The notes beneath the pieces were generated by a model. The model searched no databases. It was not told the DNA's origin and saw only the letters and a program-made list of their open reading frames with translations. Below, piece after piece: positions 1,603-6,800 of a DNA stretch of 38,716 nt (position 1 is its first letter; each line of letters begins with the position of its first letter). The translations under genes and the position numbers were made by a program. The DNA lies in assembly GCA_011523685.1 (NCBI GenBank), contig WTGG01000017.1:1-38716 (forward strand). Reading direction: 5' to 3'. Source of the DNA: Coxiellaceae bacterium. Its GTDB lineage: Bacteria; Pseudomonadota; Gammaproteobacteria; Coxiellales; Coxiellaceae.

Positions 1603-1753
1603 GGACTTTATTGTTAGGGTAAACACCACTCTTTTGTAATTTAATATCCAGTTAATATTTTTCTGTTGCTATAGGCAGAATTATTAACATTACCCTTGCG
1701 TTTTATTGACTATCAGTCTATAAACCCGCATGCTCCAACCTCATTGCTATCTG

Positions 1754-1761
1754 CGATCTTT
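1754..1761. repeat. Left 8-bp target-site duplication (CGATCTTT)
   Basis: CGATCTTT lies immediately outside the left tip GTGAGCGTCA of the element and is repeated exactly at 3149-3156, immediately outside the right tip. An 8-bp duplication is the length typical of IS66-family insertions. Confidence 0.8.
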
Positions 1762-1841
1762 GTGAGCGTCACAGCAACTACACCCTAGCTAAATAATTTA
1801 ACTTAGCCAGACTTTGGTTTTGCATAACCAAGGAGTAAGAT

Positions 1842-1967
1842 ATGGCAGAAAGCTAATCGACAGGTGAATCGGAAGAATTGGTTTAGTCTTGCAATGAAAG
1901 TGGCCAGAGCAAAGCAGCCTTAAGTTACGTCAACTCGCTTAACTAGCATCAATTTCTGTTTATAACA
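1842..1967 (+). pseudogene. Remnant of IS66-family accessory gene tnpA (OrfA)
   Basis: An ATG behind AAGGAG (1830-1835) opens a frame interrupted by stops at 1854, 1884 and 1944. Read through, it gives segments ESEELV, SCNESGQSKAALSYVNSLN and HQF. These match the usual pattern of IS66 OrfA proteins: a Trp/Leu-rich start, then SGQSKAAFC-like, then a QF-YW-like motif. Known OrfA proteins are roughly 100 residues or a little more, so only the N-terminal part is left. A hairpin (TTGGTT-TTGCAT-AACCAA, about 1815-1832) lies just before the start. The assignment rests on reading the motif by eye. Confidence 0.5.
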
Positions 1968-2024
1968 ATGTGCCCGGAGTTCTCATTCAGCTTGCCGGAT
2001 CTCATTATAACGAGAGAATCTACT

Positions 2025-2054
2025 ATGAAGCTAAAACTACTTGTATTTTTCTTT
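2025..2054 (+). other. Original bla start and frameshift site
   Basis: The ATG at 2025 has a modest GAGAG ribosome-binding site at 2012-2016 and encodes MKLKLLVFF. The T/C run 2046-2054 (TTTTTCTTT) contains one base too many to continue into the lactamase frame. Removing one T gives a continuous signal peptide and mature enzyme. Confidence 0.7.
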
Positions 2055-2940
2055 GACAGCCATTTTTTTAAGTACAAACGCTGTTGCGAATATTTCAAAA
2101 AAAATACAGACACAAACACGAGAAAAAATAGCCATGTTAGAAGCAGCTGCGAATGGGAGTATTGGTGTTTTTGCTATCAATACTGAAAATAATTATGTGA
2201 TTGCATATCATGCAAAAAAGAGATTTCCACTTTGCAGTACAAACAAAGTTATGGGTGTTGCTGCTATTCTCAAAGAGAGTGAAAAAAATACTGGATTATT
2301 ACAGCGAAAAATTAAGTACAAAAAGTCCGAGTTAATCGCTTGGTCACCAACTACAAAAAAACATGTCAATTCAGGAATGACAATTACTGAATTAGGTAAA
2401 GCGGCTATTACGCTTAGTGATAACACTGCAATTAACCTCTTAATGAAAGAAATATATGGACCCAAAGGTGTTACGGCTTTTGCGCGCTCCATTGGTGATG
2501 ATATTTTTAACCTAGTTCGCTGGGAGCCGGAATTAAATACAGCGGTGCCGGGTGGTTTACGTGACACTTCATCACCTGAGGCTATGGCCAATAGTTTGCG
2601 TAAATTAGTATTAGGACATGTATTAGCGCCTAAGCAACAAGAACTTCTTAAGACATGGTTAATAGAAAATACTACTGGAGATGCAAGAATTCGGGCTGGC
2701 ACACCGAGTAATTGGCTTGTTGGTGATAAGACTGGTACATGTGGACATTATGGTTCGACGAATGATGTCGGTATTATTTGGCCTAAAAATGGTTCGCCTA
2801 TTATCGTTGCAGTTTATTTTATAGTGAAAAAAGAAAATGCTAAGCCACGTGATGATGTTATTGCTAAAGCCACACGAATTATTTTGGGTTCTGTAACCAG
2901 CACTCAACACGAAGGAAAAATACGAGTAAAATTATCTTAG
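2041..2940 (+). CDS. bla: Class A serine beta-lactamase, KPC/carbapenemase-like, with frameshifted signal peptide
   Basis: This periplasmic enzyme opens beta-lactam rings through an acyl-serine intermediate. All class A motifs are present: S-T-N-K at residues 66-69 (Ambler Ser70/Lys73), SDN at 126-128, E-x-x-L-N at 162-166 (Glu166/Asn170) and KTG at 230-232 followed by T-C-G. Cys65 and Cys234 correspond to Ambler Cys69 and Cys238, the disulfide pair of KPC, NMC-A, SME and GES-type enzymes. WSP at 101-103 matches Trp105 of KPC. The open frame starts only at a TTG (2041) without a ribosome-binding site. The natural start is the ATG at 2025: MKLKLLVFF, then after a +1 shift in the T-rich run at 2046-2054, LTAIFLSTNAVA, a perfect signal peptide. 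The gene is thus inactivated, recoded or affected by a base-calling error. It is the cargo of the IS66-like element. Confidence 0.9.
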   Translation: MYFSLTAIFLSTNAVANISKKIQTQTREKIAMLEAAANGSIGVFAINTENNYVIAYHAKKRFPLCSTNKVMGVAAILKESEKNTGLLQRKIKYKKSELIAWSPTTKKHVNSGMTITELGKAAITLSDNTAINLLMKEIYGPKGVTAFARSIGDDIFNLVRWEPELNTAVPGGLRDTSSPEAMANSLRKLVLGHVLAPKQQELLKTWLIENTTGDARIRAGTPSNWLVGDKTGTCGHYGSTNDVGIIWPKNGSPIIVAVYFIVKKENAKPRDDVIAKATRIILGSVTSTQHEGKIRVKLS

Positions 2941-3116
2941 CGGTGCATCCGCCGTCATCAGATCCTCACCACTCCAACTCTAAGAATGCAGGCGCTTGCT
3001 TTGAGAGTATTAAATATTATAATTCCAAAACCAAACCCTTTCGTGTGATGACGATTTTGAGTTATTCCCTAGGTCATAATACAAGCTCCGAATGTCACCT
3101 GTAGTGTAAGCTCTGC

Positions 3117-3148
3117 GTGAGCGTCGTAATTTAAATTATGACGCTTAC
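3117..3148. repeat. 32-bp palindrome forming the right end of the element
   Basis: GTGAGCGTCGTAATTT (3117-3132) is followed directly by AAATTATGACGCTTAC (3133-3148). As RNA the arms pair over 16 positions with two G-U pairs. Each arm begins, reading inwards, with a GTRAGCGTC tip like that at 1762. It looks like two IS ends placed head to head, or a naturally palindromic right end. Confidence 0.75.
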
Positions 3149-3156
3149 CGATCTTT
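3149..3156. repeat. Right 8-bp target-site duplication (CGATCTTT)
   Basis: This is an exact copy of 1754-1761, directly abutting the right tip of the element. Confidence 0.8.
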
Positions 3157-3253
3157 GAGCGTGTATATAGCGTTTGATACCTTAGGACAAAGGTAAAGCG
3201 CAATAATAGTAAATTCATCATCTGAGTCATGCCAAAGGATTTTGACAAGGGAG

Positions 3254-3291: not shown

Positions 3292-3804
3292 TTAGTCAGC
3301 AGAAACGGTTTCGTTGATCGCAGTTGCTTTCGTAATCATGACTGGCTCTGCAGGTACATCTTGGTGACCGTTGCGAGATGTGGTTTCAACCACTTTGATT
3401 TGGTCAACAATGTCCATGCCCGCAATCACTTTTCCGAATACGCAATACCCATAACCCTGAGGGTCTTTGGATTGGAAGTTTAGGAAAGCATTATCTTTAA
3501 CATTGATAAAGAATTGTGATGAAGCAGAGTGTGGTGCCATTGTGCGAGCCATTGCTAGAGTGCCACGGGTATTTTGCTCGCCATGCTCAGCTTCGTTCTC
3601 GATTGGATCATGCGTGTCTTTTTGTTGCATGTCTGCATCAAAGCCGCCACCTTGGATCATGAAGTCGTTAATCACTCGATGGAATAGAGTGTTGTCATAA
3701 AAACCTTCTTCAACATAACGTAAAAAGTTTTTGGCAGTGTTAGGTGTGTTGGTGTGGTCCAATTCGATATCGATGGTACCCATTGATGTTTCTAAGCGAA
3801 TCAT
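3292..3804 (-). CDS. ppiB: Peptidyl-prolyl cis-trans isomerase B (cyclophilin)
   Basis: This cytoplasmic cyclophilin catalyses cis-trans isomerisation of X-Pro bonds. At 170 residues it is the usual length for PpiB. The active-site signatures are visible: FHRVINDFMIQGG (catalytic Arg in FHR, then the Phe and Gln), MARTMAPHSASSQFFI and the FGKVIAGMDIVD segment. There is no signal peptide, so it is the cytoplasmic rather than the periplasmic (PpiA) type. The start ATG at 3804 has a good AGGAG five bases upstream. It follows purL by 23 bases on the same strand and is probably the last gene of an FKBP-purL-ppiB operon, ending at the hairpin 3254-3276. Confidence 0.95.
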   Translation of the reverse strand: MIRLETSMGTIDIELDHTNTPNTAKNFLRYVEEGFYDNTLFHRVINDFMIQGGGFDADMQQKDTHDPIENEAEHGEQNTRGTLAMARTMAPHSASSQFFINVKDNAFLNFQSKDPQGYGYCVFGKVIAGMDIVDQIKVVETTSRNGHQDVPAEPVMITKATAINETVSAD

Positions 3805-3827
3805 AGTTTTCTCCTATTGAATTTGTA

Positions 3828-6800
3828 TTATTTTAACCATGCCCTTGCATTACGAAAGAGCTGTATCCAAGGGGTGTTTTCCCCCCAGGTATTCGGTGAC
3901 CAAGACAGCTGAGATGTACGAAACACACGTTCAGGGTGTGGCATCATCAGTGTGACTCGACCGTCTGTTGTTGTGACTCCCGCGATACCTTCTGGGCTCC
4001 CGTTCGGATTAAAAGGGTAGCGTTGAGTGATGTTATGTGAATGGTCAACGTAGTGTAAAGCCGTGCGTTGTTGGCTTTGGAGTTGTGTTAAATCTTCGGA
4101 TGAGCGAAATGTCGCGCGTCCCTCTGCGTGAGATACGACCACAGGCAGCGTGCTACCTTCCATGCCTTGTAATAAAATGGACGGTGATCGGGGTATGGTG
4201 ACTAAGCTTAAACGCGCTTCGAATTGTTCTGATTCATTGCGTTGCCATAGTGGGAAGTGATTGCTGCCAGGAATGATGGGTTGACAGTGTGCTAGCACTT
4301 GGCAGCCATTGCAGATTCCTAGGGTAAATGTATTGTTACGATTAAAAAATGTAGCAAAGGTATCGTGCAATCGGGGGTTGCGTAAAATGGATTCGGCCCA
4401 GCCTCGTCCTGCGCCTAATGTGTCACCATACGAAAAGCCACCACATACCGCTAGGCCTTGAAATTCCGATAAAGATTGTCTGTTATGGAGTAAGTCGGTC
4501 ATGTGGACATCATGACAAGTAAAGCCAGAGCGCTCGAAAGCAGCTGCCATTTCTAGGTAACCATTGGTACCTTGTTCGCGTAGTATCGCCACTTTGGGTG
4601 GAGTGAGATTAAGGTATGGTGCACTGACATCCGTATTGGTATCGAATGCTACATGAGCATTGAGCCCGGGGTCTTCTTTATCGAGTAAAGTATCGTAAGC
4701 TTGTTGTGCGCATTCTGGGTTGTCGCGTAATGCTTGCATCTGGTAGGAGGTTGCTGACCAAAGGCGTTGTAATGTGATGCGCGATTCGGTGAATAGGACT
4801 GTATCATTGTGACTAAAAGTCAGGGTGTTGTTTGTTGTAGGTTGCCCAATAATGTGTGTTTGATCAATCAGTCCATGGTTCTTGAAGATAGCTTGTGTCC
4901 GGACAACATGTTCCGTGGCCACTTCAATGACTATGCCAAGTTCTTCATTAAATAATGTTGCTATAGGGTTGTTCCCAAGTTTGCTGAGATCTATCGATAA
5001 TCCGCAATGAGCAGCAAAGGCCATTTCTGCAAGTGTGACCAGTAATCCGCCATCTGAACGATCATGATAAGCCAGTATGAGATCTTTAGCTTTTAGTTCT
5101 CGTAGTGCCGTAAAGCTGTTCTTGAGTAGTTCTGGATGATCAATGTCAGCAGGACGTTGCCCTAGTGATTGGTAGACTTGGGTCAGTACGGAGCCCCCTA
5201 GGCACTGGCTGCCATCAGCAAGATCAATAAATAATAGTGTAGTATCTTGGTGAGGATGGAGTTCTGGGGTGAGTGTTTGAGTCACGTCAGTAACAGGTGC
5301 TGCTGCAGTTACAATCAGCGAGATGGGTGAAGCAACGGTGTGTGTTTCTTGGTGGTCTTTCCATTCAACTTTCATGGAGAGTGAATCTTTGCCAACAGGG
5401 ATGTTAATTCCAAGTGCAGGGCAGAGTTCCATGCCGACCGCTTGTACGGCATCATAAAGGCTTATGGCGTCAGCACTGAAATCACAGGCGGCCATCCAGT
5501 TTGCGGATAGTGAAATATCATCGGTGTGCTGAATAGGCGCGGCCATGAGGTTAGTCAGTGCTTCACCGATAGCCATGCGGGCTGATGCTGCTGGGTGAAG
5601 AAGAGCAACTGGGGTACGTTCACCTAAAGCAAAGGCTTCGCCTGTGTGTTGAATGAAATCACTGTGTGTCACTGCAACGTCAGCTACTGGTGTTTGCCAG
5701 GGTCCTACCATTTGGTCACGAGCAACCAGACCTCCCACACTACGATCACCGATAGTGATCAGGAAGCTTTTGTCGCCGACAGCAGGAAATTGTAAGACTC
5801 GAGAAATAGCATCATTCAGGGAGACCTGTGATAAATCAAAAGGTTCGTGTTCGACATCAGAGCGATGAAGATCACAATGCATAGGTGGCATGTCTTCAAA
5901 TAATGCGGACATGGGAAGGTTGATTGGAGTGTTTTCTGGGTGGTCTTGGTCATGTAGCGTCAGTTGTGGTTCGGCAGTGGCTGTGCCAATGATGGCATAG
6001 GGGCATTGTTCACGTTGACAGATGGCGTCAAAGCGAGAGAGGTCGTGGGGTGCAATCGCTAAGACGTATCGTTCTTGCGCCTCATTGCACCATATTTCCA
6101 TGGGCGATAGATCAGGTTGAGCATTGGGTATAGCTTGTAAATCCAATTGTGCACCGAGTTTATCTGCGTGAATGAGTTCGGGAAGTGCGTTACTGAGACC
6201 GCCTGCGCCTACATCATGAATACTGACAATGGGGTTGTTATCTCCTAGTCTCCAGCAGCAGTTGATGACTTCCTGTGCTTTTCGTTGCATGTGTGGGTTT
6301 GAACGTTGCACTGAAGCGAAATCTAGCGATGACAGTTGGTCTTGGTTGCTGCGGGAAGATGCTGAGCCTCCACCAATCCCTATGCGCATGGCTGGACCGC
6401 CTAATACAATGAGTTGGGTTTCAGGTTGTAAGGCTTGCTTTTGTATTTGAGAGTCGCGAATGGTGCCAATGCCACCGGCGAGCATGATTGGTTTGTAGTA
6501 GCTGCGAATAATATTGCCCACTTCGCGTGTAATGCAGCTTTCGAAAGTTCTAAAAAATCCGGCGAGGTTAGGGCGGCCAAATTCATTATTATAAGCTGCT
6601 GCACCTATTGGGCCTTCCATCATGATATTGAGTGCGCTCGCTAGGTGAGGTGGCTTGGGTGTGTCTAGTTCCCATGGTTGTGGTAAATCAGGTAGGTGTA
6701 AGTGTCCTGTAGCAAAGCCACATAAGCCAGCTTTGGTTTGTGCTCCACGGCCAGTAGCCGCTTCGTCTCGTATCTCTCCACCACTGCCTGTGGCAGCTCC

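Follow-up and report, generated by a model that had tools for sequence, protein, structure and literature searches.

The question raised by this locus is how a gene for a class A β-lactamase came to lie between the ends of an insertion sequence of the IS66 family, in the place of tnpB and tnpC, and whether the whole segment can be regarded as a unit that moves. The locus belongs to a 38,716-nt stretch of DNA from a Coxiellaceae bacterium, referred to here as the window. An earlier note, made from the letters of the sequence, had read the locus as a transposase-less IS66 derivative with bla cargo, and this reading is supported by the IS66 ends, by the exact duplication of the target and by the existence of other transposase-less elements. 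We consider it highly probable that positions 1762-3148 of the window constitute a non-autonomous IS66-family element working as a mobile insertion cassette, composed of a left end with a stub of tnpA, the bla cargo and a palindromic right end.

Borders and ends of the element

The element comprises 1,387 bases between IS66-type tips and is flanked by an exact 8-bp target duplication, CGATCTTT, found on the forward strand at 1754-1761 and again, letter for letter, at 3149-3156. The left tip GTGAGCGTCA starts at 1762 and the right tip TGACGCTTAC extends up to 3148, with 9 of 10 positions matched as inverted repeats; on re-reading, the letters of tips and duplication proved exactly as previously described. 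The tips are of the GTAAGCG type characteristic of IS66 (GTGAGCGTC and GTAAGCGTC in this element; GTAACCGTC, GTAAGCGTC and GTGAGCGTC in other copies), and the 8-bp duplication, likewise characteristic of the family, is complete (8/8) both here and in other elements of the lineage. The left terminal inverted repeat (IRL; GTGAGCGTCACAGCAACTACACCC, 1762-1785, forward strand) can be aligned with the IRL of about 15 other copies, whose consensus is GTAACCGTCACAGCAACTACACCC. The right end is a 32-bp palindrome, GTGAGCGTCGTAATTTAAATTATGACGCTTAC (3117-3148), detected in an unbiased repeat search that also recovered the direct repeats, whose outer arm (3127-3148) corresponds to the IS66 right terminal repeat (IRR).

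Inside these borders the list of open reading frames contains, apart from the bla frame, just the broken start of tnpA and no further transposase frame, and neither tnpB nor tnpC has left a trace there. The tnpA remnant (1842-1960, forward strand) represents the decayed 5' part of the gene with three internal stops; it is 78-90% identical to other copies and, translated with the stops as X, shares 29 of 40 residues with the intact TnpA encoded on contig C8 of the same genome, so the TnpA-like frame suspected inside the left end was recognized correctly. The set of tnpA, tnpB and DDE tnpC that defines a complete IS66 is present in the C8 relative and missing here, and the window element is therefore classified as an IS66 derivative rather than an IS66 element. 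It has the properties of a mobile insertion cassette (MIC), namely a cargo gene between IS ends, no transposase and a target duplication. On the other hand, the definition of a tIS66 of the ISPa75 type, with intact transposase genes and a cargo before the IRR, applies to the C8 element, whereas the window element possesses the cargo without the transposase.

The genome from which the window is derived (2.04 Mb, 34 contigs, 98% complete) was searched with positions 1700-3200. The left ~200 bp, up to 1959-1960, gave BLAST matches to about a dozen IS66-family copies, with identities of 78-90%, and at this point the IS66 homology of the left side stops; the right palindrome was found at several more places. 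The last 22 bp of the element agree in 21 positions with TAATTTAAATTATGACGCTCAC, the right-end sequence found in other IS66 copies, which finish with ...TATAATTTAAATT(A/G)TGACGCTCAC, and within the 38.7-kb window this right-end sequence, with up to four mismatches allowed, matches only the two arms of the single palindrome at 3117-3148. Both ends are thus IS66 ends of the genome's own lineage, and a lack of IS66 similarity, which would have spoken against the initial reading, is seen at neither of them. It had also been pointed out that the letters GAGCGTG following the right repeat slightly resemble the tip; GAGCGT occurs 19 times on the two strands of the window, and the likeness is probably a coincidence.

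An exact 8-bp direct repeat was found beside random pairs of positions in the window at an empirical rate of ~2.6e-5, and the CGATCTTT duplication, located at borders set by other copies, is therefore not attributable to chance. Left and right ends were also paired over all loci examined from the genus (~977 partly redundant pairs), and perfect 8-bp repeats were recovered at five elements, the bla element among them, against ~0.02 expected by arithmetic from base composition. Because of its duplication, insertion of the element as a unit is strongly supported. Most other IS66 copies show no recognizable duplication, which we count against our interpretation, although this is to be expected of decayed or recombined copies.

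An orthologous empty site, whose absence we also count against our interpretation, was found neither among 36 genomes of the family nor at the sister loci. The 20-base joined target gave only two matches in the 36 genomes, each with one or two mismatches and in distant genera, which were rejected as empty sites and taken as chance. The closest sister locus (G003) is 96% identical over ppiB/purL, with the similarity ending at window position 3253, 97 bp outside the element; at the ppiB loci of four sister genomes (G001-G004) no sequence upstream of ppiB beyond this position is shared, and none of the four has a related region left of ppiB. Relatives carrying bla with the same flanks and no repeats, the other observation that would have contradicted the first reading, were not encountered either. 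The bla element is present as a single copy, so its recent movement is putative, and this too is counted against our interpretation.

The β-lactamase cargo

The bla frame extends over 299 codons from a TTG at 2041 to 2940 on the forward strand and was identified as an open reading frame, by profile and by motifs. Its product scores 318 bits against the NCBIfam family bla_class_A (NF033103; cut-off 200), which confirms the presence of a class A β-lactamase in place of tnpB/tnpC, and it retains the four catalytic motifs of the class, CSTNK (S70-x-x-K), SDN, EPELN (E166-x-x-x-N) and KTG. The proposal that the gene is carbapenemase-like fared less well. The pair Cys69/Cys238 is typical of class A carbapenemases of the KPC, SME and IMI type, and it is present here (FPLCSTNK and KTGTCG), as in KPC and the Chromobacterium enzymes and unlike in most near relatives. 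However, the score against the class A carbapenemase family NF000538 (317.9 bits) is below the curated cut-off of 390, and in the phylogenetic tree bla is placed apart from KPC, as well as from CTX-M, its long branch lying close to two genomes of its family, without firm resolution. The part of the proposal that stands is therefore the two cysteines, from which a carbapenemase activity may at most be predicted.

No bla was found in the other genomes of the genus among those examined. The best relative among 93 genomes, from another genus of the same family, is 57% identical, and nothing above this value was found in these 93 genomes, in species genomes, in plasmids or in phages; one of the matches is a Legionellales MAG. 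The GC content of bla is 0.371, compared with 0.408 for the window.

The enzyme is not read in the frame of the apparent ATG at 2025, at which a signal peptide begins, and the signal peptide is therefore probably disrupted or misassembled. The frame break ahead of bla may be a true lesion or an assembly error, and any activity of the enzyme is therefore putative. Neither this break nor the palindromic nature of the right end had been recorded in the earlier note.

IS66 relatives with and without transposase genes

The intact IS66 transposase that had been recommended as a target for a search in the same genome is indeed present: contig C8 carries one IS66 element with intact tnpA, tnpB and tnpC, headed by one of the left-end copies and possessing matching tips. 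The encoded proteins, TnpA (91 aa), TnpB (116 aa) and TnpC (534 aa), all score above the NCBIfam cut-offs for IS66 TnpA, TnpB and transposase, respectively; TnpA passes IS66_ISAeme5_TnpA, and TnpC exhibits a full-length DDE_Tnp_IS66 domain. When ends were paired, the nearer right end of C8 (at 2,354 bp) was rejected as the true border, as it gave no duplication; a perfect 8-bp repeat, ATTTTATT, was found only with the far right end, at 3,093 bp, which is a 72-bp near-copy of the nearer one. The C8 element is thus a cargo-carrying IS66 with the layout of the ISPa75 type, and a search with its joined flanks matched only its own two halves. The cargo, located between the two right ends (L010 2198-2614), is a short ORF, rich in cysteine, that begins like a signal peptide and has no Pfam or NCBIfam match, and the distal right end includes a foldback with a 22-bp stem. 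The right end of C8 is of another type (TAGACACCGACGCTCAC) than that of the window element, which we count against our interpretation, and the use of the window's right end by the C8 transposase is therefore putative.

Another derivative, found on contig C31 of the same genome (L014, reverse strand 3342-4928), is a transposase-less IS66 element of 1,587 bp with perfect duplications, TTTTTACT. It has a left end, tnpA and tnpC remnants that are fused, the native right end, a stretch of DNA containing an ORF of 82 codons, and a distal end, and it displays several right-end-like sequences in series. This element interrupts the tnpA of a further IS66 copy, and when it was removed in a script together with one copy of the repeat, the two halves of tnpA joined without gaps over 82 residues aligned to intact TnpA. 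The C31 site is a paralogous empty site, in the same genome, for a transposase-less IS66 derivative.

The sister genome G002 possesses two elements, of 560 bp (GATACTAA) and 566 bp (GGAAGAGT), which exhibit perfect 8-bp duplications and a palindromic right end of 32-34 bp, as in the bla element. A third G002 element, of 453 bp (GTTGTTTT), also has a perfect duplication and is bounded by a left-type end and, opposite it, by a diverged tip. Palindromes of 32-34 bp made of two opposed IS66 tips were observed alone as well, in G000 at C7:9871, C12:11318 and C31:9718 and in G002 at C28:4804, C28:19766 and C31:5401; no matching left end was found nearby at these sites. Besides, two deletion derivatives of 555 bp, on C31 (L014) and C24 (L017), have an identical internal joint (IS positions ~164/1947) and different types of right end, which suggests that right ends have been exchanged between IS66 copies.

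Origin of the element and related systems

The cassette could have originated from an IS66 element with bla located between its native right end and a second, distal one. With tnpB, tnpC, the inner right end and the greater part of tnpA lost, the left tip and the distal palindromic right tip would have remained, and an IS66 transposase supplied in trans would have inserted this shortened unit at the present site, producing the usual duplication of 8 bp. No remnant of an inner right end was seen by eye between the tnpA stub and bla. The cargo would have conferred, or may still confer, hydrolysis of β-lactams, provided that it is expressed and exported. The loss of genes is likely to have preceded the landing, because other transposase-less forms have duplications of their own.

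The strongest competitor concerns the order of these events. According to it, a complete cargo-carrying IS66 with tnpA, tnpB, tnpC and bla moved to this site, and the transposase genes were deleted after landing, so that the present form never moved alone. C8 demonstrates that a complete form with cargo exists, and the stops in the tnpA stub of the window indicate that decay is under way. Nevertheless, the genus contains transposase-less forms of 1,587, 560, 566 and 453 bp with perfect 8-bp duplications, so movement after loss of the transposase is evidently possible, and the window copy has retained nothing of tnpB and tnpC. We regard late deletion as the less probable order of events, though one to be taken seriously; as it is a variant of our interpretation that differs in timing, the confidence given to the two overlaps.

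It is unlikely that bla entered an older, already landed IS66 copy by another route, such as illegitimate recombination, in which case the duplication would record the insertion of the IS66 and not the movement of bla. The somewhat different GC content of bla and the absence of a near relative in the genus are compatible with such a history, but the IS parts that remain amount to just 200 bp at the left end and 22-32 bp at the right, the palindromic right end recurs in other miniature elements and is absent from the intact C8 IS66, and most pre-existing copies lack a perfect duplication. Finally, it is very improbable that recombination in a region rich in repeats brought bla, a lone IS66 left end and a lone 32-bp palindrome together by accident, with CGATCTTT matching by chance: the flank is indeed a graveyard of IS66-like pieces (1563-1596, 1692-1732), solo palindromes do exist elsewhere (C7, C12) and the region is not common to the sister genomes, but the exact match stands at preset borders and two palindrome-ended G002 elements show the same feature at independent sites.

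The solo palindromes (C7, C12 and others) may serve as portable right ends, from which the palindromic end of the bla element could be derived. We propose, tentatively and as a possibility rather than an expectation, that the genus harbors non-autonomous, IS66-ended cargo elements as a class of their own, in which a 32-34-bp palindrome of opposed tips forms the right end and the left end captures anything between itself and such a scattered palindrome, including a β-lactamase. A description of such a stepwise route of IS66 gene capture via palindromic right ends was not found in the literature searched.

Among known systems, ISPa75, a tIS66 element carrying fosZ, is similar to the window element in its IS66-family ends, a resistance-gene cargo at the right-hand side, unlike left and right ends and target duplications, and passengers have been reported in 7 of 25 Pseudomonas IS66 members (PMC12888890). 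ISPa75 differs in its cargo and in keeping tnpA, tnpB and the DDE transposase where the window element keeps a tnpA stub only, and the right end in the window is palindromic. MIC231 and the qnrD mic are transposase-less mobile insertion cassettes, a group of which some members carry resistance genes (PMC3913671). They resemble the window element in having inverted repeats around a cargo gene without transposase, usually with a target duplication, and in movement in trans by a related IS, which has been demonstrated for MIC231 and is presumed for the window element; however, MIC231 is tied to IS231, while the ends in the window are those of IS66. The MITEs QMITE1 and QMITE2 of Coxiella burnetii (PMC5896051) are non-autonomous and IS-derived as well, and the 453-566-bp miniature elements of the genus are of this kind, but MITEs have no functional gene, in contrast to the 299-codon β-lactamase frame of the window element.

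In ISEcp1-blaCTX-M units a β-lactamase gene is also moved by means of a constant IS end paired with a distal one. These units belong to another family, IS1380, and differ from the window element in retaining the transposase and in having variable distal ends and 5-bp duplications. The earlier note knew of no described element of exactly this make-up. Our literature search, which was incomplete and did not cover ISfinder, returned no IS66-ended cassette with a β-lactamase; IS66 elements with resistance cargo have already been described (PMC12888890), which the note did not know.

If the interpretation is true, a little-known group of gammaproteobacteria, probably Legionellales, has IS66 elements that pack genes of the resistance type into small cassettes free of transposase, and IS66 must be added to the IS families from which mobile insertion cassettes can form. 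The genus would then offer naturally occurring ends, a partner transposase and cargo with which to test gene capture by IS66, a process hitherto deduced solely from finished elements, ISPa75-fosZ being an example.

The flank of the element deserves a separate description. A truncated IS66 left-end remnant is located at 1563-1596, 200 bp upstream of the bla element, and next to the bla element, at 1692-1732, a 41-bp remnant represents the beginning of a different element that occurs in multiple copies and bears an IS66-like tip (GTGAGCGTCACATAAACTACACCC in G004). Copies of the latter were found at L015 6980-8619, at L021 2730-3618 and on contig C20 of G004; its ORF has the look of a reverse transcriptase by eye, a 205-aa piece of it being without a Pfam match, and the copy on C25 is 889 bp long with a 7/8 duplication.
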